The notes under the pieces are model-generated. The model saw only the letters and a program-made list of their open reading frames with translations, was not told where the DNA came from and searched no databases. A program made the position numbers and the translations under genes. 64,000 nt of DNA from Antennarius striatus (Eukaryota > Chordata > Actinopteri > Lophiiformes > Antennariidae). Below, piece after piece: positions 4,601 through 58,004 of this stretch (position 1 is its first letter; the number at the start of each line of letters is the position of its first letter). Where the stretch lies: contig NC_090784.1 of the NCBI RefSeq assembly GCF_040054535.1, positions 13,679,501-13,743,500 on the forward strand, in the 5' to 3' direction.

Positions 4601-5549
4601 TATTATCTTGCTCTACAAGAAAAGCAGGATGTTATCCTGTAGTACAAGCTTCAACTGGATCGTGGAGATTTGATTTGGAGAAAGCACACATTGTACTTTT
4701 GATTTCTTTACCTAAAAGAATAACTCTAGTTTACTACTAGGTTCCACACAAAATGCAAGCATTTGAAACTTTGTAAAAACCTCGTTTTTTCCCCCAAATC
4801 TATCAATTGGGGTGTTCCTAAGTGACACATTACAGATATGTCAAATAGTTTCACAATGAAGGAAAAATCTTACCAACTTTAAAAAAAAAAAGTACTGTAT
4901 ACTCAAGAAATAAAGAATATTTTCTAATTGCAAAGCATGGTGTCCTAAATATGGGTTATTTGCCAAACAAGCTGTGCAAATAGAAGATCTTTGAATTAAA
5001 TCAACAAATTTACCAGGGTGTTACCAACTCACTAAGCAATAATGCTTGACTCATACTTTAACCAACAACTTCTGAATGGAACAAAGCTTGTTTGATTTGG
5101 TGTGGGATTGTTGGGTAATGTACCATTACCAGAAAAATAATATCTAGGCTTCAAGGACACATTTATCTTCTGGTTGGATCAAATTTAAAAAAATATTTTT
5201 TTATCAAGAAGCAGAAAATGTGTTCAACATACTTAGATATTTATTGGGAGAACACATCATTGCATCAAATGTTGCTAAGTTCAGACCCCATTAAGTAGAC
5301 AATAATGTAAAGGCTTTTGGAATAGTAACAAAAATGATCAAATATTAGAACGTTAAAGAAAATCATTAATAGGCATTAAGATATTTTGGGGGAAAACACC
5401 ATATGATGTCCTCTGTATTTAAACAAAATGTAAAGCAATTGGATTTCAGTCCAGATGCTGTAAGAGATCAAACCATTTACATATCTGTAGCACCAATCAA
5501 CATGAGACAGGATGGGTTTGTGCACAATTAAATATTTTGTCCTGTGCGG
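1668..5549. other. Intergenic, npyb 5' side to malsu1 3' side
   Basis: No supportable coding region. The first, untranslated npyb exon should lie here but I cannot place it. The stretch is AT-rich, with a perfect hairpin at 2429-2476 (separate entry) and a GA run at about 1973-1982. A TTTATT at 5240-5245 is a possible minus-strand poly(A) signal for malsu1. Confidence 0.5.
2429..2476. repeat. Perfect hairpin, 21-bp arms and 6-nt loop
   Basis: The left arm at 2429-2449 is the exact reverse complement of the right arm at 2456-2476, with loop TGGATG. The right side (GATGAGAGACGAAACGTCTT) is a motif I recall from teleost interspersed repeats, possibly the end region of a Penelope-like element. 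A short related tail runs on to about 2545. Family assignment is from memory and weak; the palindrome is directly visible. Confidence 0.6.
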
Positions 5550-6936
5550 TCACTTTGTGTCTTCAATATCATATATAAAATCTTTTGGTAGTGTCTCAGC
5601 AGGGATGTTCTTCAGCTGCTCATCATAAGAACGGAGAGTCCAGAGTTTCTCCAGTTCATATACTTCTCTGGTCTCTGGTAGCATGAAATGAACAACCATA
5701 TTCCCTGAGACATAGAGAGAGAAAAGTAAGACAATTAACATGTCCAGTGGACCTACTGGCCAAAACATCACTTTATACTTTGAATCACTGAAGTCAGGAT
5801 CTTTCAAGATTACCGAAGTCAATACAGATCCAGTCCTCTGCATCCTTTCCTTCAATCTTGACGTTTGGTTCACCTTTTTTCTTCAGAAACTTGTACTGTG
5901 AGAAAAAGTATCCTTTATGCAAAGCTTAGGATCCAATCAACATTTAAAAGTGTGAAGTGTATGTTAATTACCACTTTGACGGTATAAAATGCCATTGCAC
6001 GGAGGTGTCTCACTGATATGCCACTCACAACAATGAAGTACTCTGCATATTTGATCTGTTCAGGTACTCTAATAACACAGATGTCCACTGCATTTTCCTG
6101 ACGCAGTAGAGACACCAGCACATCAAGAGTGAATTCTGGCGGTGAAAAATGGTTATAAAATTGAGTAGCAATATTCAAGCAAAAAGAGACACATTTTATT
6201 AAGTGTTCATAAATTAATATGATTGGTTTTAGACACTGGTTGGAGACCACAAGCTATTTTTCAAATATCGCCTCTGGCTGTGGAAAATTGTAATGGGAAT
6301 TTCGTATATTTTCTGGCATGTGTAAGTTTAAAAAATGATTCCATCGTTTGGGAAATAAACTAATTAACCAATAATAAAATGTTGTAGCACGAGTAATTTT
6401 CATGAACCAAAAGGGAGGTCTTAAAATTCTAATGTGGCCTTATCAAACAACCTTTGGATTGTCAAATTAAGATGTTACAAATTTTATACACAAACAATAA
6501 TTTGTAGACAAATCGCTTAATTATTTAGTAAATATCAAATAATAAAGAACAATGTAGTTGTTTCTTTGTCCAACCAACACCTGGATGGGACCAGCTACTT
6601 ACTTGTTTGTTTGTGGACGCTGTCTATCTCCTGTGATTTCTCTTGTTCCACACCAGCGCTCCTCTTCTGTTCACCGTCAGTGCAAACCTCCGAATACCAT
6701 CGTTGTGTGTCCACATGACTGTTCCCTACACACCAGCTTTGACTTGAGGACAAATGTGCTCGTCGAGGTAAATTCAGATTAAAACGACTTTTGGGGATCG
6801 AACACAAGTTTCTAAAAACACCACTTTGTTTCACAATAACGCTGCTTTTAAATACTGGTGATACAAGTTTCTTGAGGCAATAAGGAATAATCTGCATTTT
6901 AAATTTAATATGAGTAAAACTGTCAACTAGCCACAA
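5550..6936 (-). CDS. malsu1: MALSU1, mitochondrial RsfS-family ribosome factor
   Basis: Four exons (6603-6936, 5972-6135, 5814-5895, 5550-5704) give 735 nt, 244 residues from the first Met. A second Met at 6897 would give 231 residues and a better mitochondrial presequence start ([12 protein letters not shown]). The RsfS/iojap domain is clear: [57 protein letters not shown], then [20 protein letters not shown]. These match human MALSU1 segment by segment, including exon junctions. The human protein acts in the mitochondrial matrix, binds uL14m of the large subunit and guards its late assembly. An inverted CCAAT box lies at 6982-6987, upstream of the start. Which Met is used is uncertain; the identity is not. 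Confidence 0.93.
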
Positions 6937-6987: not shown

Positions 6988-7464
6988 TCTAAACACCTTC
7001 TTCGTTGCTTTCTGGGTTTATAAATGAGAAACACTACACCTACAGGTTACAAGTGGTATTTATTTCAGGATTTGGGGTCCGTCTCCCCATAATGAATTCT
7101 AACTACAGTACTTTATACAAGGCAGAGTTTGACATTGAGGTCATTGTGTCACTTCACCCAAAACACTCACAACATTGAGACCAGATTTAAACATCTGAGT
7201 AACCCATCCATCTCTTCATTCCCATCATTTTCCTGTCCCAACCCATCATCTTTCATTCATTAAAAAAAAAAAGGAATCATTTATTTTTGGGATTATTAAA
7301 GCATTCATTCACTCATCTGGCTGGGTGAGTAACTCATACCTGTTTGGAGTAGCTAATAATAAAACAGCAGCTCTGAACAAAATCTAGCTACCAGAACAGT
7401 AAAAGTGTCAAAACATATTTGTAATTTATGAGGAAAGACAAGGATTGCTTGATGTTTTATAACA

Positions 7465-7545
7465 AGCTATCAATCAATCAAACTTCATTTATAAAGCTCT
7501 TTTCATACAAAATGAGCAACCCAAAGTGCTTTACATAAAAATAAT
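7465..7545. repeat. Teleost interspersed repeat (SINE-like)
   Basis: The segment starts with ATCAATCAATCAAACTTCAT, goes through TTTATAAAGCTC, and ends CAAAGTGCTTTACAT. This layout recurs in many fish genomes as a short interspersed repeat. A related ATCAATCAATCAATAGACTT piece lies near 33895. I cannot name the family. Confidence 0.4.
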
Positions 7546-7577
7546 ACAAGACACAAAAAATATCCTCCCTTTTCCCC

Positions 7578-7689
<112 letters not shown>

Positions 7690-7845
7690 TTAAGAACTAT
7701 GCTACCTCGAAAAAGGAAGATTTATAAACCCAATCATTAAGTCATTATATGATGACTGATTTGTGCTGTATCACAAGCATGAACGGGTAAATTTATACAA
7801 CTCATTTGAAAGCAAAAAATAAGGAAAATGACATAATTTTTAAAA

Positions 7846-7851
7846 TTTATT
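7846..7851 (-). terminator. Candidate poly(A) signal of smpd5
   Basis: TTTATT on the plus strand is AATAAA on the minus strand, about 300 bases past the smpd5 stop. This would give a short 3' untranslated region. No cleavage-site evidence is available. Confidence 0.4.
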
Positions 7852-8153
7852 TCTGTAGAAAAGATTTGTGCAAAGATCCCAAATGTTTCACTGTTGTTTT
7901 CTTTAAAAAAAGAAAAATCAATATATCTGCACTAAAAAAATCCAAATGTATAAATTCTTAACATTGTGAAAAGCCATTCCTTTTAAATAAATTACTGAGG
8001 TACAACCTATTTACCTGTGTATTTCAATCAAAATGACATATTCAAGTATGTAAAAAAGAAATTCTTGTGCCTGCATAAATTACAGCAATGAATTATTTTT
8101 TTTGCTTATGTGTTCACTTTGTTCCCTTTGTTTGAACAAATCTACTTTAGCCC

Positions 8154-12690: not shown

Positions 12691-13440
12691 CACAGGTTGA
12701 CCATGATTCCAGTGGACCTTGTTCTTTCTCTTTTCCTTTTTTCCCTTTCACCTCATCTCCATTTTTCATTTGGAGATTTTTCTGCCACTGAGAGTACACC
12801 TTTGCTGGTAGAGTGGAGAAGGTCTTGTTTATTCTCCTGGCCTCAATCTCCTTGGTGTATCTCTTCAGTCAGGTAGCCAGAGCCGTCAGTCTCTGTTTGG
12901 CAGTTTACCTGTCTCTGTTTGGCAGGTACCTGGGATACCTGGGTACCCCTTTATTCACCATGTTCCCCTTCTGCAGCTCGGCTAGCTGGCTGACTTCTCT
13001 CCGTGTCGCCTTTATCTTGGCCTCTAACCGTCTCTTCCATGGAGGGTATTGTTTGTTATGCCCTGTGTTGATCTTACATCCCAGCATCTCGAGGATTACT
13101 GTTGCTGTACTGTGGATCAGCTTGTTGGTCTCAGTTATGTTCCCTGTGGGGATGGTTCTTATTGCAGCATTCACATCTTCTAGCAGATCTTCTGAAGGTA
13201 CTTGACAACTTAGCTTCGGTATTTGTCGGAGGCTCCAGGTTTCCATTTGGGTCACGATCTTCCTTCTCAGGTCAGCAGCTCTTGTATTGAGGCTGTGTAT
13301 GTCTGTTGGGGCTTGGTACCCAATCTCGGATTGTGGGGGGGGTGATATCCCCCCGCTGACCTGGCGTCCTGGCTCCCCCTTGCCGTAGCATTGTTGTAGT
13401 ATTTCATCGATCTCTAATTGTGACAGCAGTTTTCAGTTAC
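12690..13440 (-). mobile_element. LINE (non-LTR retrotransposon) fragment, pre-RT region
   Basis: Minus-strand reading gives NTGHNKQYPPWKRRLEAKIK and REVSQLAELQKGN, then in another frame YTKEIEARRINKTFS and KVYSQWQKN. From memory these are successive pieces of a LINE polyprotein found in fishes and other animals, lying before its reverse transcriptase. The frame changes and stops show a decayed, 5'-region fragment; no RT core follows. The clade is uncertain (R4/Dong-like is one possibility). Confidence 0.6.
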
Positions 13441-13699: not shown

Positions 13700-14132
13700 A
13701 ACGACTCCGAGAATGGGACCGGGATGCCGTTTCTCCTGGAGGACGACCATCACAGAGTTCTCCCACCAGCAGGCAGCACATCCCGGTCAGACCCAGAACT
13801 GACGTCGGTGAGGAAAGTGATGAATGAATAAATAACTATACAAACTTCATGACTCATAAATAAAGAAACAGACGGACAAATATTCAAGTAGCAAGCATGT
13901 TTATCAACATGGAGCTGTTATACGTCAGAAAATAGCCGGTTTGACCTCCGTCCATTCTGTGTGTACATGTAAACATGGGTCACACACACTGACGTCACAG
14001 CGGTTTTCATCGCAGGGAGACGCCCCCCGGATAGAAGTTCTGGTTACAGCATCCATACAACAAACCATACTCAGCATTTTCAAAAAACTTCACTTTGGCC
14101 AGCGTTTTCGTCCCAGATGTATAACTTTAGAG
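13700..14132 (+). CDS. Two candidate exons of an unidentified plus-strand gene
   Basis: Exon A is 13700-13807 (108 bp, acceptor TATAAGCAG, donor gtgagg) and reads NDSENGTGMPFLLEDDHHRV then PPAGSTSRSDPELTS. Exon B is 14016-14132 (117 bp, acceptor TTTTCATCGCAG, donor gtaaga) and reads GDAPRIEVLVTASIQQTILS then IFKKLHFGQRFRPRCITLE. Both are stop-free, multiples of three, in phase 0, and GC-richer than their surroundings, so they would splice in frame. I do not recognise the protein and found no convincing further exons. It may be a pseudogene piece or chance. Confidence 0.3.
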
Positions 14133-15722
14133 GTAAGAAGTCAAATGATTTCATAGATAACCATCACTGCAAATTCTGGAGACTGGTACAAAATAAAAAA
14201 GAGATGCAGCCTTGAACCTACAGACAAAGATAACTACATCCTGTCAGGATATAAAATTGGTGCCATATTATCCCTCTTTGACATCGCTTTAAATGTCTAA
14301 AAGACAACATGGATGTAAAAGTTTACCATTCAACATGAATTATATATGTCGATATATAACTTCATTGAAAAATACATGCATTTTTTGAAAACACAATTTT
14401 GTTAGAGAAAACCTAGTACAACTTGTGTTATCAGCAGTACAATAAACATGAAGTCATGGAGGTTTCAGAATGTTTGTTACCAGACAACAATATAAAGTAC
14501 GGTATGCACCACATGGAAGCACCATCTACATCTACAATACTACCTTAAAACATTTGGTGTGCTACAAATGAAACTGAAATTCTTGATATATAAGCGTTTT
14601 TTTCAATGATTTTGTGCATGAGATGACTATCGTCATGAGGCAACCACAGACATAAAATGTTAAAAATATAACTATAAATATATTTTTGTACCTTTTGTCA
14701 TACACACATACAGAGTAATTTACCGTACATGGAAAGAATAACTGCTACAGTATTAGTATTTAGATAAAACAGATTAAATCTGTATAAAAGTGACCATAAT
14801 CATGTTTAACAAAAAGCACAAGCAATGTACCATCACTTTTATATTATGACACTTTCTAAAACATTTGCCACCATATCAGATTGTTTCTGAAAAGACGTTT
14901 GACAAATTTTGAACAAAAAAGGTTGATAAAACAGAAGTATTTTCAAAGTGGTGTGTTCAGGATGGAGAATATATGTAAAAACATAATCTTGCCAACTGAA
15001 ATGAGTTGCAGCTGGGTCCTTGACAATTTTTAAAGTCAGGAACATTTTCTGCCAGGAGGTGGTATGTGGCTGTCGTGTGCTCGTGTTACTTGTAACTGGA
15101 GTAACACGAGTGTATAAGCTGGTGAAAAAATCCATCTCACATCTATTTCTCAGTGATAAATGTAAAGATCTGGATTATTAGTAACACTAAATAAGGACAT
15201 TGCAAACATCTTGAACGTTGCTGGTCCAGCCTGTTGATGTCACCTGTTTTTTTTACAACTTTATATACAACTTCAAGTCACATGAAGTTCTGGCTTCAAA
15301 AACTGATGACAGGAAAAGAAATAAGAAATAAAAAATCCTTCCATCTGCTGTTGCGGGTCTTGGGGTGCTGGAGCCTATCTCAGCTGACTGGGGGCATAAG
15401 GCAGGGTTTAAAACTTTTTTTTTTTTTAAATTTCAATGCTAGACAGTGAGTCGAAATAGCCCAGTAGCCAGACTAATGTGCAAGGAAAGGAAATAAATGC
15501 CACTACACATAATGTAGATTCTTAATTTTCCCCCTTAATTGTTGCTCTCTGCCTAGACAAGCATCGCAGATACAAAGCATCTTGTTTTCTCTTGGAATAG
15601 TAGTACATATGTCTATCTGCTCTCCAGAGAAGAAGATAAAGAAAGCTAACGGGAAACCTCAGGTTTCAGTTTGCAATGCTTTCAAATAAACAAGATGATC
15701 ATTGATGACGTCAGCAGCCTGA
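14133..15722. other. 3' flank of the slc1a4-like gene, repeat tail
   Basis: AT-rich, without coding evidence; the right part probably holds the transporter's 3' untranslated region. At about 15340-15415 lies an L2-type LINE tail (GGGGTGCTGGAGCCTATCTC, AGCTGACTGGGGGCATAAGG) followed by a T run. Confidence 0.5.
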
Positions 15723-17279
15723 TTACAAGACAGACTCAGATTCAGCCTCATTACTGACCTCTTCATTGCCATGACCATTTTTCTCCATTAGCTGCGAGCA
15801 TTCAGGAACATCAGTTCTGACTTCAATTAGCTCTGTTAACTCTCCTCCGTTGGATGAATCTTGAAAGAACTGTAGGATGCCAGCTCCCAAGGCATTGCTC
15901 TCTATATCCAGCACTGTGCGGGTACTGTCAATGAGCCAGTCAACAGCCAGAATGAGAGAGATGTCACTGGTGGGCAATCCGACGGCCTCCAGTATGATAG
16001 CAAGGGTCATAACACCTCCAGCAGGAAGGCTTACTGCACCAACATTGGTTACTGTAGCTGTCAACAGGATTGTAATGACTTGGAGGAAGTTGAGGGGAAT
16101 GTTGTTCAGTTGAGCGATGAAAATAGTAGCCACACACTGGAACAGCGCCGTTCCATTCATGTTGACGGTCACTCCGATGGGTAGGATGAAACGACTGATG
16201 TGCTTGGATACGCCATTATTTTCCTCCACGCACTTCATTGTCACGGGAAGGGCGGCCAAGCTAGAGGCAGTTCCAAAGGCAGTTTCCAGAGCGGTGAATG
16301 TTCCCCAGAGGAATACGTAAGGGTTCTTATTTGTAATGAAGCAGTATATGCGGGGAAGTACAATGATGCCATGGATGGCATGTCCAACAATGCAACATGC
16401 TATATACTTTCCCAGACAGGCAAACAGTGAAACCACATTGTTCAGCTTAACAATCTTGACAGCTACAAGGAACATGATACCAAAAGGGGCATACCACATG
16501 ATCCAGGACACCAGCACCATGGTGGCCTCACTGAAGGACTTGAAGAACTTAATGAGGATCTCTCCTTCCTCCCCCAGCTTCCTTAAAGCTATACCAAACA
16601 TGACGGCGAAGACGACCAGACCAAGAATGTTCATGCTGTCCTGATGTGTTCCGATGGGCAATTTTTCCACTGTGACATTGGGGTTTCCGTCAGTGCCATT
16701 CTTGGTAACGAGTTTGTAGCTAGTGGTATATGATTGAAAGGAAGCAGATACCAGGTTGGAGGGGAAAATGTTTCTGATCAAATCTAAGAAGGAGTCTATC
16801 ACGTTTTTGGGTTCAGAGATGCCATCATCCAGCAATTCGATTCTGGTTTTGGTCACCGACCCCGGCATTACAATGAAAGCCATCGCAACCCCGATGATGG
16901 AGGCCATCAACGTGGTCATCAAGAAGAAGAGCATTGCCCAACCACCGAGCCTGCCAAGGGTTTTTGAGTTGATGTTGGCATCCACGGACACAACACTGCA
17001 CACCACCAGTGGGATGATGATCAATTCCATTAATTGAATGAGCAGATCACCCGGGAAGCCAATGTAGATGATCTGTGATCTAGAGAGTGTCACGTTGCGC
17101 ACAGCAAGGCCAATCAAAACTCCGGCAATGATCCCTACCACAGTGAGAATCACAAGCAAATTAGCCATCACAATCCTCTTCACCCGCTGGGACAGTGGTT
17201 CAGGATTTTTCCTTTTGGGACTCGTCGATTCATTAGTAAGCGCCTCGCTGTTGGAGGCTGTGCCTTCTTCTGAGTCCAT
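15723..17279 (-). CDS. Intronless SLC1A4/ASCT1-like transporter
   Basis: A single uninterrupted frame of 518 residues with the full SLC1 fold. It matches human SLC1A4 from the first membrane segment (residues 36-60) to the last residues (ESVL), including MNILGLVVFAVMFGIALRKL, EATMVLVSWIMWYAPFGIMF and ISRFILPIGVTVNMNGTALF. Extracellular N-glycosylation sites NGT (194) and NVT (201) are present. SLC1A4-type genes are multi-exon, so this is likely an old retrocopy kept open. Key sites differ: NMDGA is NMNGT (Asn375), the HP1 tip CSSSAT is ASSLAA (338-343), the HP2 GAAG is GAVS (414-417), and TM8 reads D451-S-T-R454-T with D458 and N462, where ASCTs have T/C, N and D. Arg454 is the acidic-substrate residue of EAATs. 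Sodium binding or substrate may therefore be altered, or transport lost. A retained gene is more likely than a pseudogene, given the long frame. Confidence 0.88.
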   Translation of the reverse strand: MDSEEGTASNSEALTNESTSPKRKNPEPLSQRVKRIVMANLLVILTVVGIIAGVLIGLAVRNVTLSRSQIIYIGFPGDLLIQLMELIIIPLVVCSVVSVDANINSKTLGRLGGWAMLFFLMTTLMASIIGVAMAFIVMPGSVTKTRIELLDDGISEPKNVIDSFLDLIRNIFPSNLVSASFQSYTTSYKLVTKNGTDGNPNVTVEKLPIGTHQDSMNILGLVVFAVMFGIALRKLGEEGEILIKFFKSFSEATMVLVSWIMWYAPFGIMFLVAVKIVKLNNVVSLFACLGKYIACCIVGHAIHGIIVLPRIYCFITNKNPYVFLWGTFTALETAFGTASSLAALPVTMKCVEENNGVSKHISRFILPIGVTVNMNGTALFQCVATIFIAQLNNIPLNFLQVITILLTATVTNVGAVSLPAGGVMTLAIILEAVGLPTSDISLILAVDWLIDSTRTVLDIESNALGAGILQFFQDSSNGGELTELIEVRTDVPECSQLMEKNGHGNEEVSNEAESESVL

Positions 17280-17446
17280 TTTCTCAGCCGTTTGGGGCGT
17301 AAAGTTAATGATAAACTATGACTTCCGTATTGACAAAGTGGTCAACACGGATTTAACCTTTTAAAGATTTAATCTTTTGATCTTTCTTCATAGTACTTAG
17401 TTTACTCTCCTTTGATCATTCTTTATCTTTCTATTTTATGATATAT

Positions 17447-17615: not shown

Positions 17616-18795
17616 CATGGATATACATACATACTGTAAACTAAATAGATATACTGTAACTTTGATCTACACTCCCTTGATCAATGCACAAATGAGACTC
17701 TTTGTTACGTCATTCAGCTTGTGAATGACGTGATAAACTGCCAGACTCTGAAGACCATGCACAACTGCTGAACTACTGTTCAGTCAAGGCTTCAGATTCA
17801 GATAAAGCACACATTGCTGGGGTATTTCAGGTGCAGTCTTCATACTTTGACAGGTGACAAATTTTACATCATGGACATTTTAGATTTACATTCTAATACC
17901 TGTTTACCATTAACATTGACTCTGACACCTAAAGAATCACATAAATGACATTATGAAGCAGCTGCATTGGTAACATTTGGACCTGAACTGCATCTCATGA
18001 GCAGTAATGAGTTATAATGAGCCTAGTAATAATGCTGCGCTAATGATGTCCTTATTGTGGATTTTAAAAAAAGGCAAAGAAAAAAAGAACAGGGCAAAGA
18101 AGAAACTTTAGCAAATAACAAGGGTTTCTTTCTGGATGAAAATAGCGAAGGAAAGCGTGGAAAACACCAGAAATCTTTGGGCCTAATTTAATGTATCTTC
18201 AGTATGTTCACAATTTTCCTTGTTGATTTAAATAAAGATGTTAAAATACCAAGAACTTGTCTTTCAGATTTTTATTATTAAAGCTTTGACTCACATCACC
18301 CAACCACCCATGGTGTTTGGGAGAAGAGAGTGAAGAGTGGTTACAGAGTGTACATATTTTAAGAAATACAAGCAGTATTAGCAATACAGGCAGGGGTGTA
18401 CTGGGTGTAAAGAAAGCAAACAACGGAATCGTCAAGCACCATCAACCGAGACACAATCGGAGCATTAGTGTAACCACAGTAAACGACGCCTTGCTTCAAC
18501 ACTCAAAATTTATAGGTGCTAAAATTATAGGTGTCAACGCTTTGGTTTTCATCAGTACTTAGAACAAACATGCAAAGTAAGATGCCCTGAAGAAAACAAT
18601 CATATTATGCAAGATATAAATAGCTTTCTACTATATCGTCCCAACATGAGTAGTTTCCATTACAACAGATGGGACAAAGATATTAAAATAGTTAGCATCA
18701 ACATGCCTTTTGCTGACAAACTGAGATTTCAATTGAATCTCACAAGATTTTTCCCAATATTTTCCACCCCCCCCCACACACACACACAACTACAG

Positions 18796-19701: not shown

Positions 19702-22011
19702 CTACCAGAGAAAGAGGGTATTATCCTTCTCTGACATTTTACAGAGGCAGTTGAGCAAAATCTGAATGTCCTTCTGAAGTTGCTGAGGTGCCCTGGATGT
19801 TATCAACTTCTTCAGAACATTTGAATTGTTATAATTCGTCTCCAGGGTGCTGAGGTAATTCGTCTGCATGATCCCATAGGTGTTCACGACAAATTCAGAA
19901 AAAACAGGGTGAAACTTTGTTTGATAACCAAGCTGGGACAAACTATCCATGAGCTTAATGTATCTCTTTGTGAGAAAAAGCCGATAGTCGTCATCTTCCT
20001 CCCCTGTCAGTGGGTGTGTGCTCGCCTGTAAGAGAGAAAGAAGACCTTGTTACATTCCAATGTCATGAAGATGGAACTTTATGCACTGAAGAATCAAAAA
20101 GCAAGAAGTTTTTCTGAAGAGTTCACAACTTTTTGAAACATAGATAAAATTATTACTGTCTCACCTCTTTGATCTTGTCAGGTATATTCTGGACTGTGAA
20201 GCCATAAAACCTCTTACGCCCCCGGAAAACATATGACAAAATTCTTTTATCCAGCTGATAGGCAATTTCTCCCAGAAACTTTTTTTGACCTTCAATAAAA
20301 TAAGACAGGTCAAAAAAATAAATGCGTCTTTCTACAATTTGGACTGTCAATACTTTAAAGGAATCCACCTGTAGGAGTGTCACTCACCTTCGACCTCTGA
20401 GGAGGTTTCTGACCGTATGCCTTGAGTCACTTCTGGGTTTGGGCACGCTGAATTTTGTAGGAAAGATGTGAAGTTGATGGGGGATGATGCTCGATTTTCA
20501 CCTTTGAGTCTGGTATGTTGAAAATCTTTTAGAAGCATTTCTTCATCACACGTGTTTCTGAGCTGGCTGGTTGGCTTTGGTGCTGCGAAGGATGTCCAAC
20601 TAACTGATAACACAAATTAAAGATATTATCATTGTCATTTTTCATTAATGAAAAACAGAAGATACCTGTCTTTTGACATTTAAGAGATCAGTGAAGAGAC
20701 ACCTATAAGTTATAAGGAGTAAGTATCAAATGCACCAAGTGACATGTTGAGTAAACAGGAAATCATCGTTTTCTTGCAGATTTTGGGATTCAATCAGATG
20801 TTGCATTAAACCATATACTGTACTGTACATATAGATATCAGTTCTTCGCTAAGGCACAATACATTTTTGATTTACCACGGCAGTTGTTGAATGCAGTGAG
20901 AATGAATAAGTCAATAAAAGCAGCGGTCCCCAACCTTTTTAGCACCACTGACCGGTTTCATCTAAGACAATATTGTCATGGACCGAGCTTCATTTGCTGG
21001 CTGATCTTTAATGACGCCAGGACGGCTTGTTGTAATAATAAATCACTGCAGTGGTCTAATGCGAAATGCAGACATCAACAGACAATACACAACCCTTTTT
21101 TTTTTTTTTTTCATAAATTGATTATCAACATCTCTGTAAACAAAACTATTTATGTTCGAGCAAAAATCCTTTTCAATAAGAAATAATTATAATACAAATT
21201 TTATTCACGTGACTGGGCTGATGGGGTTTATTTTGAAATATAGCGACTTACTATCAGTGCGTTCACTATAGGAGAAATTCTGATCATTTTTATATAAGAG
21301 GTTGAATAAGTCAATCATAAAGTAATAATAATGAGAATTAGTGGGAGCGATCCGGTCCCATGTTGGGGTAACGAGATACAATAAAAACCGGAGTGTGTTC
21401 CGGATGTCTGGTCTGCTTCGTAGTTGGGTTTTGGTTGCGGTCACTGCAGAAAATCCCGCTTCACAAAGACAGGTTGGAAATGGAAGCAGGGTTTTCACTG
21501 CTTTTTGGGTGATCTCATGATATTCTGCCTTGATTTTACTTCAGAACATCGGCAGAACACTCATTTTTGCTCGCTTGTGGCCTTAATATTGGGGCTGGTA
21601 ATCTGTGGTCACCGAGATCTGTCAAGCGGGACAGACGCATGCATTCGTCTCTGCGTCATTCCGCACAGAAGTCACTTTTCAAAATAAAACATCTTTCGAT
21701 TGATAGTAAAAAAAAGGAAAATTCAAACGTTCTGTGCCGAATGGTGCCTAATGGTTGGGGACCGCTGAATAAAAGCACTGCGCCTTGCCTCAGCACCACT
21801 GACCCGTTCAATAGCTGCCATCTACTGGCAGAGAAAAGTATTGACAATTACCTGAGTGCCGCTCCGTACTGTCGTCGACAAAGCTGTCCAACCTGCTTCT
21901 CAAGTCTTTGTTTTCCTTGACTAATTTAATCATAATCCGCAGATTGTCATTTTCCATTCTGAGTTGCCCCATTTTATTGGGCAGGTCGGCTATGGTCTCT
22001 TCCCAGTTCAT
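19702..22011 (-). CDS. spatc1: SPATC1, speriolin
   Basis: Four coding exons (21852-22011, 20388-20603, 20165-20289, 19702-20025) give 825 nt, 274 residues. The N-terminus (MGQLRMENDNLRIMIKLVKE) is a short leucine-zipper-like coiled coil as in speriolin. The middle is Ser/Pro-rich and variable. The C-terminal domain is diagnostic: FLGEIAYQLDKRILSYVF, RFYGFTVQNIPDKI, HPVFSEFVVNTYGI and IQILLNCLCKMSEKD, ending FLW. Mammalian speriolin is a testis protein of the centrosome that binds CDC20. A splice acceptor (CTTTTATACTAG) lies 10 nt before the ATG, so a non-coding exon exists upstream. SPATC1L is the alternative; adjacency to grina favours spatc1, as on human 8q24.3. The first coding intron carries an 847-bp hAT insertion. 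Confidence 0.85.
20921..21767 (-). mobile_element. hAT DNA transposon, 847 bp, with 8-bp target duplication
   Basis: The ends are perfect 15-bp inverted repeats (CAGCGGTCCCCAACC and its complement) with further imperfect matching inward. AATAAAAG directly flanks both sides (20913-20920 and 21768-21775), the 8-bp duplication typical of hAT. Inside, the minus strand encodes the end of a hAT transposase (LPFPTCLCEAGFSAVTATKT, RSRPDIRNTLRF), so this is an internally deleted, non-autonomous copy. It lies in the first coding intron of spatc1. The intact duplication suggests a fairly recent insertion. Confidence 0.92.
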
Positions 22012-24525: not shown

Positions 24526-27373
<2,848 letters not shown>

Positions 27374-31404: not shown

Positions 31405-34150
31405 GCATGCCAGCTTGACTGACAAGGGAGGCTGGAGGCACGCTATTTTTGCTTCCCTTGTCTCCAAAGGACGAGACGATCTTCTCCTTCACAAACACAT
31501 GGCAGGGCACTCATCTTTTAGGGGCTGCATATTCCATAATACTTTTTGAGTGAATTGACTTCTTTTGTACAAGACTGGAGGTGTCCTGGTTTAGCATTAA
31601 ATGTTGCCCTTGTAACAAAGTTGGATGACAGATTGAAGCAAGAGCTTCAATTCTCACACTAAACCGGACTAATCTTTCTTTTTTATTGCGTACGTTCAAA
31701 CTTAAACAACATGCTGGTGTCCTTTCCAAGTGATACGACACATTTTAATCCAAACAGTGCAAGGGCTGAAAGGGCACAGCTGACTTAAGTCATCTCTGTT
31801 GAAACTGATGGGTTGAACATGTTGCGGTCCTGCAAGTGGGGAGCTAAATAAAGATGCTTTGTAAATCACCAGGACACATGGGTAATCCCTAGCACATAAC
31901 CAAAAAGCTTCACAGGCACATGGCTCGGCCCACCTGTTGTCCACAGCCGAGTGGCTCTGTCTGTGCCATACATTATTAACAGCGCTGCAGAGTGACTCCC
32001 ATTTTCCATCTGAATTTGAGAGGCCGTGGAGATCACTGTAACCAACAGCTGCTGCCTCAGAGACCAGCAGAGACCTCTGTCTCAAACATTTGAAATTGTC
32101 CTTTTATTAAAAAGAATTACTTGTTTATCGCAAAGCTAAATAATGAATGAATACTCATATTTATAGTGGAACATCCAAAAATAGCTTTGCGCTGGGATCC
32201 TTACATTTTCATGTACTTCAAGATTCAATGATGTTAATGATACCACAAATGTGGTGGCAATTAATCCTGTTTTTCTTTAGTCATCATTATCCATGTTTGT
32301 TCTCGTGCGCTTTCACATGTTAACACTATTGTTGAAAGAGAGCTACTGGAGGGATGAGAAAAACTAAACTGGATTTTTTTTTTTCTTGGCAAAAAAAGTG
32401 CACAGCATAATGTACTTTTACGTAGATGTAAGCTACAAGTAAAAGCAGTGTGTTAATAGAATAAAAAACACAGCATCATGGGTAAGGAAACAGAAAAAGA
32501 ACTCCCACATGCAAACCAGTGTTTGTTTTGTTGTAGGGGATCAATTTTGAAATCAGCACACGGAGTGATCGTCACCCCCCTTTTTACAACAAAACACGAT
32601 CGTCTTGATGTTAACGAGAAACCAGGGGAAAAATGAACCACAGGCTAAAGCACAACTCAGTCATTAAAAGGGAAAATCAAACACCCCAGAGGTACAATTC
32701 CCTATCAAAAAACAGAATGTCTGCACAAAAAAAACAAAACCTCCTGCACCCCCCAACTTCCCCACTGCAAGTAGAAATCAGCACACAGTTAAGCTGAACA
32801 CCACATCATACTGAACAAAACCAAGGCACACACACGTCTAAGCACTATGGAAAACTGAAAAAAAATCAGAAGACTTCCATGCATCTAGTCACCATTTGTG
32901 TATGTCACAGTACACAGGTAACACTTTAGTGCTCTGCCCAATGCAGACTACTCCTCAAACCATCATGTCCCTTCATCAGCTATTTTAACCGTTACCGATC
33001 CTGTTAGATCAGAGAGAAATGGACAACATGAAGTCAAGTCCTGTATGGCTGGGGACAAATGTTAACTTCCTTCACAGTCAGCGCCAAGCAGAGGAGCACA
33101 AGTCAACACTCACGTCCTCATTCCAGATTAAATGGGAAGAGGCAGTAACAAATGGCATGTTTACAACAATAAGAACAGATAATAAAAGATCACAAGAGAC
33201 AAAAGCAGATTTTGTGAGAGAAATGTAACTAAAAAAAAAAAGTAAAACTAACTAGAAATTTCTGTAACTAAACATACCCATAAGGCCTTTGGATAAACGC
33301 TGGGTGGATCTGAGGCACACCAAATGCAAAACCTAGAATGAAAACAGACACCTGTTAAAGCTTGTTTGCTTACGGTACATTTTTAATGAACTGTGACTGA
33401 AAATGAAAAAACTGAAATTCTTTTAAATTTCATATAGAATTAGCGTAATAGTCTGTTAGCCCGTGATGCCATGTTGGCTTCTGTCTTTGCATTCACGGTA
33501 CTAGTTAAGGTATGTTCCAGTCCCTCACCCCCTTACCTGGCTGTATGACCCTGGGTTTGGCCCCCAGGTACGCCAGGTTAACATTGGCTTTCCTGCCGTC
33601 TATTATGGGGTTTGGATCCTTGCAGGCTCGGTCAGCAGAGGCCCTGTCTGCCATGGTCACCTAAGCGAAACAACAAAATTTCCATTGACCTTGGATATTT
33701 CACTGTACGGTTTGATCATGGTGATATGACCCCTCACATTATTGATTTTTACGGTCTTTTGGTTTATCTTAGATTACTCAGATCTTATTTTAGGTTCCAC
33801 GTCTTGACTGTCAACATCAGATAAGCTATTTCCAACTTAGTTGTCACCTAGAAGGGAAAACAGGAGACTCGTCTGTTCCTCCTGTCGATACATCGATCAA
33901 TCAATCAATAGACTTTATCCCCTGCACGTGTGCAATGAACTTTATAATGTCAAGTTCAAACTGACCATAGGTTACTTACAAATCCATAACCTCTGGATTT
34001 CCCTGTCTGCCGATCAGTGATGACAACAGCTTCCTCAATGTCTCCAAACACCTCGAAATATTTCCTGAGACTGGAGTCGGTGGTGTGATAAGGAAGACCT
34101 CCAACAAAGATCTTGGTGAACGTGGTGTCTTTCTGTGCCGAGTGCATCAT
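30168..34150 (-). CDS. rbm24: RBM24, RRM splicing and mRNA-stability regulator
   Basis: Four exons (33980-34150, 33537-33660, 33278-33332, 30168-30540) give 723 nt, 240 residues. Residues 1-90 hold one RRM with RNP2 (KIFVGG) and RNP1 (KSRGYGFV), followed by [20 protein letters not shown]. The C-terminal half is Ala/Tyr/Gln-rich with poly-Ala runs, [20 protein letters not shown], and the family end [11 protein letters not shown]. The start has two Met codons; the second matches the usual MH start. Known RBM24 proteins control muscle and heart splicing and bind GU-rich RNA. The next gene is kif13a, as on human 6p22. Teleosts have two copies; with npyb and grina here I expect the hoxAb-linked one (rbm24b), but sequence alone does not settle this. 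RBM38 is ruled out by the C-terminus. Confidence 0.93.
30541..33277. other. rbm24: rbm24 intron 3
   Basis: A 2.7-kb intron with no other gene that I can support. It holds an (AC)n tract at 31335-31402 and A-rich runs near 32700-32860. Conserved regulatory sequence is plausible but cannot be judged from one genome. Confidence 0.6.
31335..31402. repeat. (AC)n microsatellite, about 68 bp
   Basis: Pure AC repeat inside rbm24 intron 3. Open frames across it on both strands are artefacts. Confidence 0.97.
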
Positions 34151-34270
34151 TTGTTGATTTCTGTAAGTGGTTTCCAAGAAGTTTTCAGGCAGACAAAATA
34201 GAAAAACCGGCTCAGATGAGCTGAGGGAGAGAGAGTGGCAGCCCCCACTGATGTGGATCCGAGAGGAGTG

Positions 34271-34302
34271 GAGGAGGAGGAGGAGGAGGAGGAGGAGGAG
34301 GA
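34271..34302. repeat. (GGA)n tract in the rbm24 leader region
   Basis: About ten GGA units 120 bases upstream of the rbm24 start; on the minus strand (TCC)n, a pyrimidine tract. It could lie in the 5'UTR or promoter, where such purine/pyrimidine tracts may adopt triplex structure. Confidence 0.9.
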
Positions 34303-36830
34303 CACCTGTTAGTTTGTTGCGGGAGATTTCCCAGTTGTGTGACATAGATACTTAACTCCACCCAGATCCAGACCCCCGGCTCAGCCTGCCGACTGGCGCG
34401 CAGCTGGTAAAACAATGGCGATGTGCGCTTCTGGTGGTTTCTGACACCACTCCTGTTTCTAACGGAGAGGCTAATGCCAGTCACAGGGAAATAAGATGCT
34501 GCTCAAGGCGGCTTCAGTCCGAAATCGTGGCCTTTTTAAGAATAAATACAGGAAACTCGTGCTGTCAATTTCAAAGGTTGAAAACGCGCAAATCCTATCC
34601 AAGGCCTCATTGCGCACGCCAAGAAAAGTTGCCAAAAACGTTTAGTACGTGTTGTATCACACTTCCCACTCACTTTAAATATTTTAGTATTTGATTTGAT
34701 GAAGTAATACAAAAAACGTAAGCAAACGCCACTAGAGAGAAATAAAATCACAAATAAAACTCCCACAAAAGAAAACATTTAGGCGCAAATTTCAAAAATG
34801 ACAAGTTTTCCTTCCTAATTGCAATTCTTGGTTTAGTATTTTTAAGTCCAGCTGATGTTTAAAACTAAAACTATGAATTTTGACAAACTTCTGGCTGCCT
34901 ATTAAAAAAAAAAATCAGGCCGTGTTTCGCAGCACCTGTGACGGAGACGTTTCCAGCAGTCACGCCGTGTTCTCGCGAGATCACACCAAATCTCGAAGGC
35001 AGCGAGAAACAAGTGGTTTTATAGAATCAGTGTGAGATTATATTTAGATTAAGAGTACCTGGAAATGTGCTAAAAATAGATCTTTGAATGAGAATATCAA
35101 AACTGTTTTAGATAAATATAGAAACATCAAAAATGTTACTGTTAATAAAAATGTTGGTCTTTTTTGTAATTGAAGTTTAATTGAATTTTATTTGAACTTT
35201 CAATGACATTGTGGGGTCAGTCGACCAAAAGTCCTTTCTGAATATATTTTGGCTTTGAAGCACTTGAGAGAGGACATGGCCAGTCAGTGTGTTATGCGCT
35301 AAAATTAGAGCTACACTCATAAAACATACTAAAATGTCCAAACGTCAGACCGAAGGAGCTGAATGAAGAATCAACACAACACGCTGATTGTGATTGTTCT
35401 ATTCTAGAACATTTTGTACCATTTCAAACAGTCTGAGATACAATATAAATACAATTCTATACATTATAATACTGTAAATACTATGTTCAAATACATTTCT
35501 ATGTACAACTCCTTCTGAGGGAGAGCAGCTTTGTTCTCTTCTTTAAAGTAAGGTCTTGGGTTTCATGTCCTTGAATTACAGCTCAGATATATAACAACAT
35601 CTTAGTCAAATCCACAGATCACCACTTCCATAAAAATATCAGTTCATCGCACAGTTCTTCTCCATAACTAAGCTACTTTTGCACCATCCTCCATGAGCTG
35701 AAATTGTCCATCATCCATTCATCCAGTCCTTGGTGTGAAGAAATACATTTTTGAGTACCTTTGTACAATAGCGTTATGTGTCAGTCAGTCTAGATATAAG
35801 ACGCAGTCAAAGTTATTCCATCGGTAAGTCAGGGAGGCTGGATGACCTTTTGAATAGCTCTGGGCATCGTGACATACAAACACAGGTTTCAGGTCCATAC
35901 AGTTGGTTAGTTAGTCAAAAACTGAATGAACTTATTATGGATTTCATGAAGTAGTTTGAGTTCTATGTGCACTGCCTTTATGGAAAAGGGCATTAAGGCA
36001 TCAATAGTTAAGCCTTAGACAAACCCAAGCTGCTACTAATAGTGATGACCCATGGTTTCTCAGTCACTTCTGTTCGAACATATTTCATCAATCCAAAATG
36101 GAAGAGTCGGTGGACTCTCCATGAATCCTTCCAGTGCAAGCATTCAAACAGCAACAGTCTGGTGCTGGATGGGGATTAGTTCCTCTACAGTGTTACAGTA
36201 CTTCAACAGGATCATTTATCATACGAATTGCAGTCAAACACAGAGAGCAACTCGGGTATTTTTCAGATTTTTCCTCGGTTCGGGTTACGTGGCATTACTC
36301 ATAAAGATATGGCACTAAGCTTTACATGAACACAGATATACATATTTACGTCAACATACATTACAAAAATAACATATTATTCAGCAGATATGGAACCGTA
36401 GTTCTTTGGTTACCCCTGATATATCATATCAATGTGTAAATATCATTGTTTAATAACAGTAGTACATTCTTAAACTTCATATCCCAGATTATTCCACTAT
36501 GAGCCTCAGGTGAGGATGCATTGTCTTACAAAAATATTATATAGAATAATCAGAAAGTGATGTAAGAAAATTTAAGGGGACAGACTCCCAATTCAATTCT
36601 CTATCAAAAATAGAACCATGTAGAAACTGTATAGATATGTGCATAGTGAATTTTCAGTGGTAATTAAGCAATAGCTTCATTAAATGCACATGTCATATAA
36701 GCGCTGGGAAATGTCTAACAAACTAATCAACTCAGGGGTTTGAGTGGAAAATTCAGCCTGTGATTCAACCATAGGCACTGGATATGAGGATGACCCCTGG
36801 GTCCCCAGTGTCCACCCCCTTCATTGGATC
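34303..36830. other. rbm24 promoter side and kif13a 3'UTR
   Basis: The left part (34350-35000) holds scattered CpGs and short GC-rich patches fitting an rbm24 promoter. From about 35190 to 36830 the AT-rich sequence is probably the kif13a 3'UTR; an AATAAA on the minus strand lies at 35187-35192, 1.6 kb past the stop. No other gene seen. Confidence 0.45.

Positions 36831-58004
<21,174 letters not shown>

Follow-up and report, generated by a model that had tools for sequence, protein, structure and literature searches.

An intronless slc1a5 copy of Antennarius striatus, probably coding, with altered SLC1 ligand residues

Identification of an intronless slc1a5 copy

The window analyzed here is the whole stretch of 64,000 nucleotides of Antennarius striatus DNA, and its sequence makes it probable, as a joint reading, that it contains a member of an slc1a5 retrogene family that still codes for protein and has lost standard Na+-coupled neutral exchange. 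The open frame lies on the minus strand at positions 15723 to 17279, begins with ATG, comprises 518 codons (518 amino acids) and is intronless. Its product matched a single Pfam family at E ≤ 0.001, SDF (PF00375; E = 7.9e-104), over residues 42 to 469, with the domain present at full length (profile positions 1 to 384 of 387). An open frame of this length and with a match of this strength does not arise by chance. Human ASCT2 chains could be aligned to the protein without intron-sized gaps, and all seven introns of the parental gene are missing. The open intronless retrocopy proposed in the preliminary description of this DNA is thus borne out, at a locus other than that of its parent. The label "SLC1A4-like" was wrong: amino acid identity is 0.784 to the slc1a5 gene of the same genome and only 0.524 to its slc1a4, which rules out slc1a4 as the parent and, by sequence comparison, places the copy in the slc1a5 lineage of the SLC1/SDF family. 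SLC1A4/ASCT1 lies on the same neutral exchanger branch of SLC1.

The likeness to SLC1A5/ASCT2, the closest relative found in the genome, extends to the untranslated regions (UTRs) and to a shared C-terminal ESVL. About 32 bp of parental 5'UTR stand immediately upstream of the ATG (17280 to 17311, minus strand; 81% to parental positions -32 to -1, E = 0.004). The 3'UTR homologue (14124 to 15722, minus strand) was aligned in three BLAST blocks with 74 to 78% identity, gaps included, and lacks the 3' end of the parent along with its poly(A) site. The presence of parental UTRs is a criterion for retrocopies. The copy differs from SLC1A5/ASCT2 in having no introns, in the replacements D375N, A377T, C454R, N458D and D462N, and in its changed HP2 tip.

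Parent gene and sister copies

The genome to which the window belongs (548 Mb, 42 contigs) was searched at both the protein and the DNA level. The protein search returned 70 matches, including the window copy, three other long intronless copies, on C3 (72%), C6 (69%) and C12 (65%), a C2 fragment free of introns (84%, codons 174 to 357) and the exons of multi-exon SLC1 genes. Among the 17 matches of the DNA search was one additional site, C7:6720693-6720824, where 132 bases match the window copy at 80%, possibly a further relic. By sequence, the genome thus has at least five intronless slc1a5 copies including that of the window, four of which keep near full-length frames, and the idea of a lone retrocopy is ruled out.

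The parental slc1a5 gene lies on C6 and the window copy on C9. The parent has eight exons with GT-AG introns, an open frame of 523 amino acids and the TM8 motif DRTCTVLNVEGD. The gene slc1a4 is a separate one on C11, likewise with several exons, in which the corresponding motif is DRTTTVVNVEGD. We take these two names to be correct on the basis of such motifs and of alignments with the solved human ASCT1 and ASCT2. The expectation of a multi-exon parent elsewhere in the genome therefore held, with slc1a5 and not slc1a4 in that role, and the multi-exon slc1a4 is likewise present as a separate gene. Identity to slc1a5 was 0.844 for the C3 copy, 0.779 for the C6 copy and 0.721 for the C12 copy.

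The genome's slc1a5 also ends in ESVL, an ending kept among the copies by the window copy alone. Loss of the C-terminal tail occurred at a similar point in all three sister retrocopies (parental codons ~488 to 495), through an early stop in the C3 and C12 copies and through a frameshift within the tail in the C6 copy.

Pattern searches for relatives elsewhere gave 2 matches in viral contigs and 76 in bacterial or archaeal contigs, none of which was confirmed. No account of slc1a5 retrocopies was found by literature searches covering the top-ranked part of larger result sets. In zebrafish, slc1a4 and slc1a5 are each represented by one gene (PMC2873418), and the terms "retro," "single exon" and "pseudogene" do not occur in the main text of that paper. 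Intact retrocopies are common in fish, with 159 of 218 (73%) in medaka (PMC3136929). The present case differs from these in that several copies occur and transporter ligand sites are altered.

Selection on the coding frame

Codon models were fitted to 475 codons shared by the five sequences (slc1a5 and four copies). Omega was 0.069 on the slc1a5 branch, 0.84 for the window copy, 0.43 for C3, 0.73 for C6 and 0.76 for C12. Taken singly, C3 was the only copy to reject omega = 1 (2dlnL 17.0); the window, C6 and C12 copies did not (2dlnL 0.76, 2.39 and 2.41). The dN/dS check suggested in the preliminary description thus gives 0.84 for the window copy with an interval, interpolated from the profile, of about 0.57 to 1.25, which includes values near 1 and is compatible with neutrality. 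Jointly, the four copies had a dN/dS of 0.68, which is below 1 (2dlnL 16.8, p = 4e-5), and equal omegas among them were not rejected (p = 0.08). A two-class fit to the four copies placed 38% of codons at omega 0.11, with the rest at a fixed value of 1. We infer that the copies have been kept coding by selection, with constraint relaxed over most codons.

The ratio of nonsynonymous to synonymous changes in the window copy was 2.09, compared to a neutral value of 2.23, and its changes fell only slightly less often on sites conserved between slc1a4 and slc1a5 (0.53, neutral 0.63 with a range of 0.54 to 0.72). In neutral simulations with a mutation spectrum drawn from the copies themselves, about 13.9 stops were expected in total in the first 485 parental codons of the four copies, and none was found, counts that are not independent between copies since these share changes. 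For the window copy, 3.2 stops were expected (P(0) = 0.03).

Alignment of the parental and window coding sequences (CDS) revealed 7 gap events in 1,555 aligned sites, two near nucleotides 17 to 21 and five from 1422 on, which together leave the copy in frame. The core of ~1,400 nucleotides between them (parental nucleotides ~22 to 1422) has none, compared to 44 gap events in 1,325 aligned sites of the 3'UTR (the three BLAST-alignable blocks). Mismatch levels were similar in the two regions, 15.5% in the CDS and 16% in the 3'UTR. Only part of this contrast, perhaps half, would be the window copy's own, since slc1a5 is itself constrained in its CDS and less so in its UTR. Frame integrity and indel depletion argue against simple decay of the window copy.

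Other processes that might have shaped the changes were considered. Positive selection (omega above 1) on a subset of codons, confined to the window branch, was unsupported (2dlnL 0), and strand-biased hypermutation as the source of the G>A ligand changes was rejected, as G>A (59) and C>T (58) changes relative to slc1a5 show no strand bias. CpG decay was rejected as well, D375N not being a CpG-type change relative to slc1a5. Local clustering of changes in the window copy was not significant for the maximum in 9-residue windows (P = 0.31); counts in 15-residue windows were overdispersed (P = 0.007).

A broken relative for comparison is provided by the C2 relic, which has a 14-base deletion and a stop at codon 352. 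It lies on the reverse complement of L013 at about 4995 to 5524 and 7058 to 8035, and reverse-transcriptase-like frames, judged by eye, occur nearby. The relic and the window copy have in common 17 nonsynonymous and 3 synonymous private changes that are absent from the other four sequences. After their split, the window copy acquired 5 nonsynonymous and 4 synonymous changes and the relic 19 and 6, with 3 differences unassignable. Neither the comparison of 17:3 with the neutral proportion of 0.69 (p = 0.09) nor that with 5:4 (p = 0.16) was significant. Since the split, 9 of 530 coding sites and 49 of 798 UTR sites changed in the window copy (p = 5e-5). Changes were also fewer in the coding part of the relic (24 of 530, compared to 61 of 798 in the UTR; p = 0.03). 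Between the two sequences, the numbers of coding changes differed (9 versus 24, p = 0.014) and those of UTR changes did not (49 versus 61, p = 0.29); the coding/UTR contrast itself was not significant (2x2 p = 0.105). These counts are suggestive of slower coding change in the window copy than in the relic, and an early fast phase followed by constraint on the window copy would fit them.

Residues of the ligand site

All residues named in the preliminary description (Asn375, Arg454, Asp458, Asn462 and the HP1 and HP2 changes) are present. With GltPh numbering mapped by motif alignment, codon 375 (16155 to 16157; this and the following positions on the minus strand) has Asn in place of the NMDG Asp, D312 of GltPh. 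Asn is also found there in the C3 and C12 copies and Asp in the C6 copy. Codon 377 (16149 to 16151; T314), a change missing from the preliminary description, has Thr, as in the C12 copy, where slc1a4 and slc1a5 have Ala. Codon 454 (15918 to 15920; R397) has Arg, compared to Cys in slc1a5 and Thr in slc1a4. Codon 458 (15906 to 15908) has Asp for Asn at N401, a highly conserved residue that binds the main-chain carboxylate of the substrate (PMC12668577), and codon 462 (15894 to 15896) has Asn for Asp at D405. D312 coordinates Na3 and D405 coordinates Na1 (PMC5110648). In the HP2 tip, codons 410 to 418 (16026 to 16052), 6 of 9 residues are changed.

In the window copy's own numbering, the hairpin changes are S341L in HP1 and S412N, A416V, G417S and I418L in HP2, and the residues kept are F119, T122 and T123 (TM3), S339, S340, N373, M374, D451 and T455. 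Expressed in GltPh numbering, the changes from slc1a5 are D312N, A314T, S349N, A353V, G354S, I355L, C397R, N401D and D405N, with S279L, R395S and G404S as neighbors.

Ligand residues were not protected from change: 7 of 25 residues in a strict contact set were altered, compared to 4.6 expected (P = 0.15), a count that leaves out D312N, since most of the five reference sequences have Asn at that position. Among 199 sites identical in the five other sequences, 23 were changed in the window copy, including 4 of 13 ligand sites (P = 0.048), with no such excess in the C3 (1 of 10), C6 (2 of 11) or C12 (3 of 12) copies. A wider ligand set (11 of 32, P = 0.019) was not relied on, as it was partly chosen after the changes had been seen.

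The residue sets given in PMC12668577 allow a more specific reading. Na+-coupled SLC1 proteins have [S/T]92-93, N310, [M/S]311, [D/E]312 and [D/E]405; the window copy agrees except at 312 and 405, both Asn. Only N405 is found of the H+-coupled signature (hydrophobic 92, L311, N405). The EAAT-type acidic substrate site consists of T314, D394, R397 and N401, of which the window copy has the first three and Asp in place of N401. By these sets, as described in that paper, the copy would be neither Na+- nor H+-coupled.

The copy can also be set beside known homologues. The residue that it has at 405 is found in bacterial H+-coupled homologues, and most members of an intermediate clade resemble it in having an incomplete set of Na+ ligands (PMC12668577). 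The window copy is unlike both in its vertebrate retrocopy origin, in keeping T92 and M311, and in combining D312N with N401D. EAATs carry Arg and Thr at the R397 and T314 positions. The window copy shares both residues, whose roles are known from GltPh (PMC12668577), and differs from EAATs in that the equivalents of D312, N401 and D405 are all changed.

Possible functions and alternative explanations

On these data, the window copy is probably functional. It would make a membrane protein with an SLC1 fold, predicted to be a folded trimer, in which standard Na+-coupled neutral amino acid exchange has most likely been lost, because two cation-binding carboxylates (D312 and D405) are gone and N401 is changed. 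Candidate roles in its place are uncoupled binding or exchange, anion conductance, or the formation of trimers with slc1a5. A doubtful alternative is that the copy is a retropseudogene that has by luck remained without stop or frameshift so far, its ligand changes being neutral drift. This would agree with an omega not different from 1, a near-neutral ratio of nonsynonymous to synonymous changes, a chance of lacking stops that is not extreme for the window copy alone, ligand sites changed as often as others, and loss of the parental poly(A) site; the first AATAAA or ATTAAA in the 3.7 kb searched lies at 12955, ~2.8 kb past the stop, which also counts against a coding frame. It does not sit well, however, with the gap-free core beside a 3'UTR full of gaps, with three sister copies likewise open to parental codon ~488 or later, with the joint omega below 1, or with coding change slower than in the C2 relic at similar UTR change. 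Even non-functional copies would be an example of a retrocopy family that retains its frames while the ligand site drifts.

If the copy is coding, as we favor, it may take more than one form. One of them, which we put forward very tentatively, is a non-transporting SLC1 subunit that alters trafficking or conductance in trimers with slc1a5, or else an anion channel. Retention of the frame and of the ESVL tail while ligand residues drift is in line with this, as are the 30 changes in 196 scaffold positions compared to 50 in 242 of the transport domain (borders approximate and set by us), but that difference is not significant (p = 0.17). A new ion-uncoupled carrier of acidic amino acids seems unlikely. 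Here R454 and T377 would bind the side-chain carboxylate as in EAATs and D451 the amino group, the loss of D312 and D405 accompanying that of Na+ coupling. In favor of such a carrier are the presence of the R397, T314 and D394 equivalents, the neutralized D312 and D405 equivalents, the ligand-site excess among otherwise identical sites and a bacterial precedent: a reconstructed ancestor is reported to need neither Na+ nor H+ for transport, and most of its descendants, of which just 16% have the complete set of Na+ ligands, are expected not to be ion-coupled (PMC12668577). Against it, the tested uncoupled ancestor retains the full Na+ ligand set, and its authors state that eliminating three Na+ sites would diminish substrate binding (PMC12668577); moreover, unchanged T92 and M311 leave the H+ signature incomplete, and the window branch lacks support for codons with omega above 1. 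Since R397 and T314 would favor an acidic group but Asp401 would repel the alpha-carboxylate, uncoupled acidic transport is possible rather than likely, and the data agree no less well with a non-transporting or anion-conducting role.

In SLC1 proteins, coupling depends on a small number of carboxylates and on a conserved Asn. A natural experiment on the fold without standard Na+ coupling would be provided by open retrocopies whose ligand residues change stepwise alongside a parent that is intact. That a retrogene deprived of two Na+ carboxylates and equipped with EAAT-like acid ligands has become an ion-uncoupled carrier is, in our judgment, quite improbable; if true, it would be a natural vertebrate counterpart of the uncoupling reported for the reconstructed ancestor of bacterial glutamate transporters and predicted for its descendants (PMC12668577).

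Origin and spread of the copies

Parental 5'UTR sequence reaches to -118 in the C6 copy, -72 in the C3 copy and -32 in the window copy. The C6 and C12 copies extend to or near the parental AATAAA, the window copy ends ~200 nucleotides short of it, and the C3 copy matches the parental 3'UTR over some 210 nucleotides only. The C12 copy ends in an A run; the 3' end of the window copy is lost. On the 5' side of the UTR sequence, a non-parental flank is common to the window, C6 and C12 copies; it is represented in the window by an interspersed-repeat-related segment at 17658 to 17723 (minus strand, -444 to -379; matches of 79%, E = 1.8e-9, and 74%, E = 8e-7). A further segment at 17826 to 18343 (minus strand) matches the 5' flank of the C12 copy at 70%, and parts of it recur elsewhere in the genome. 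The C3 and window copies have only a 23-base match in this region. No match to the shared flank was found within 3.5 kb upstream of the parental slc1a5, nor any to its interspersed repeat in 8.7 kb at that gene. Beyond the A run, a stretch of 57 bases is likewise common to the C6 and C12 copies (75%, E = 3e-5). A genome search with the flank in question gave 46 matches, none of which was this stretch, and failed to recover C12 as well. An interspersed repeat (L012 4687 to 4807, also L048 to L053) with a TATA-like CTATAAATACATAAACT lies immediately 5' of the C12 copy and could act as a promoter.

Because a non-parental 5' flank is clearly common to three of the four long copies, the simplest account would be one retroposition of slc1a5 followed by copying at the DNA level, an account weakened by part of that flank being an interspersed repeat with other copies in the genome. 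In slc1a4-rooted trees, the copies group apart from slc1a5 with supports of 89 to 100 by region. This is weakly consistent with a common origin, since the slc1a4 branch is long and the sequences differ in base composition (GC3 of 0.83 and 0.70 compared to 0.57 to 0.62). Inner supports for the order among copies were 48 to 58 for the whole gene and 51 to 74 in columns 1 to 339. As columns 340 to 460 group the window, C3 and C12 copies at 86 to 87, D375N may have arisen once in the history of that region, with conversion or parallel change as alternatives. Under an assumed star tree, branch dS was ~0.25 for slc1a5 and ~0.12 for the window copy, and 0.38 for the pair. Ks values of 0.35 and 0.413 correspond to ~50 million years in other fish (PMC3136929), by which the pair would be some tens of millions of years old.

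Neighborhood of the copy

An exon-like frame on the same strand (19705 to 20049, minus), ~2.4 kb 5' of the start codon of the retrocopy, matches Speriolin_C (PF15059, E = 1.3e-31). Speriolin is testis-expressed. A Pfam scan of ten neighboring frames gave no match for six of them; matches in the neighborhood include CAP_GLY (37426 to 38706), RRM_1 (33959 to 34351) and RsfS (5553 to 5882), all on the minus strand. A tandem repeat of 36/18 bases at 26931 to 27240 lies within an open frame that would read as repeated PGGF-type units.
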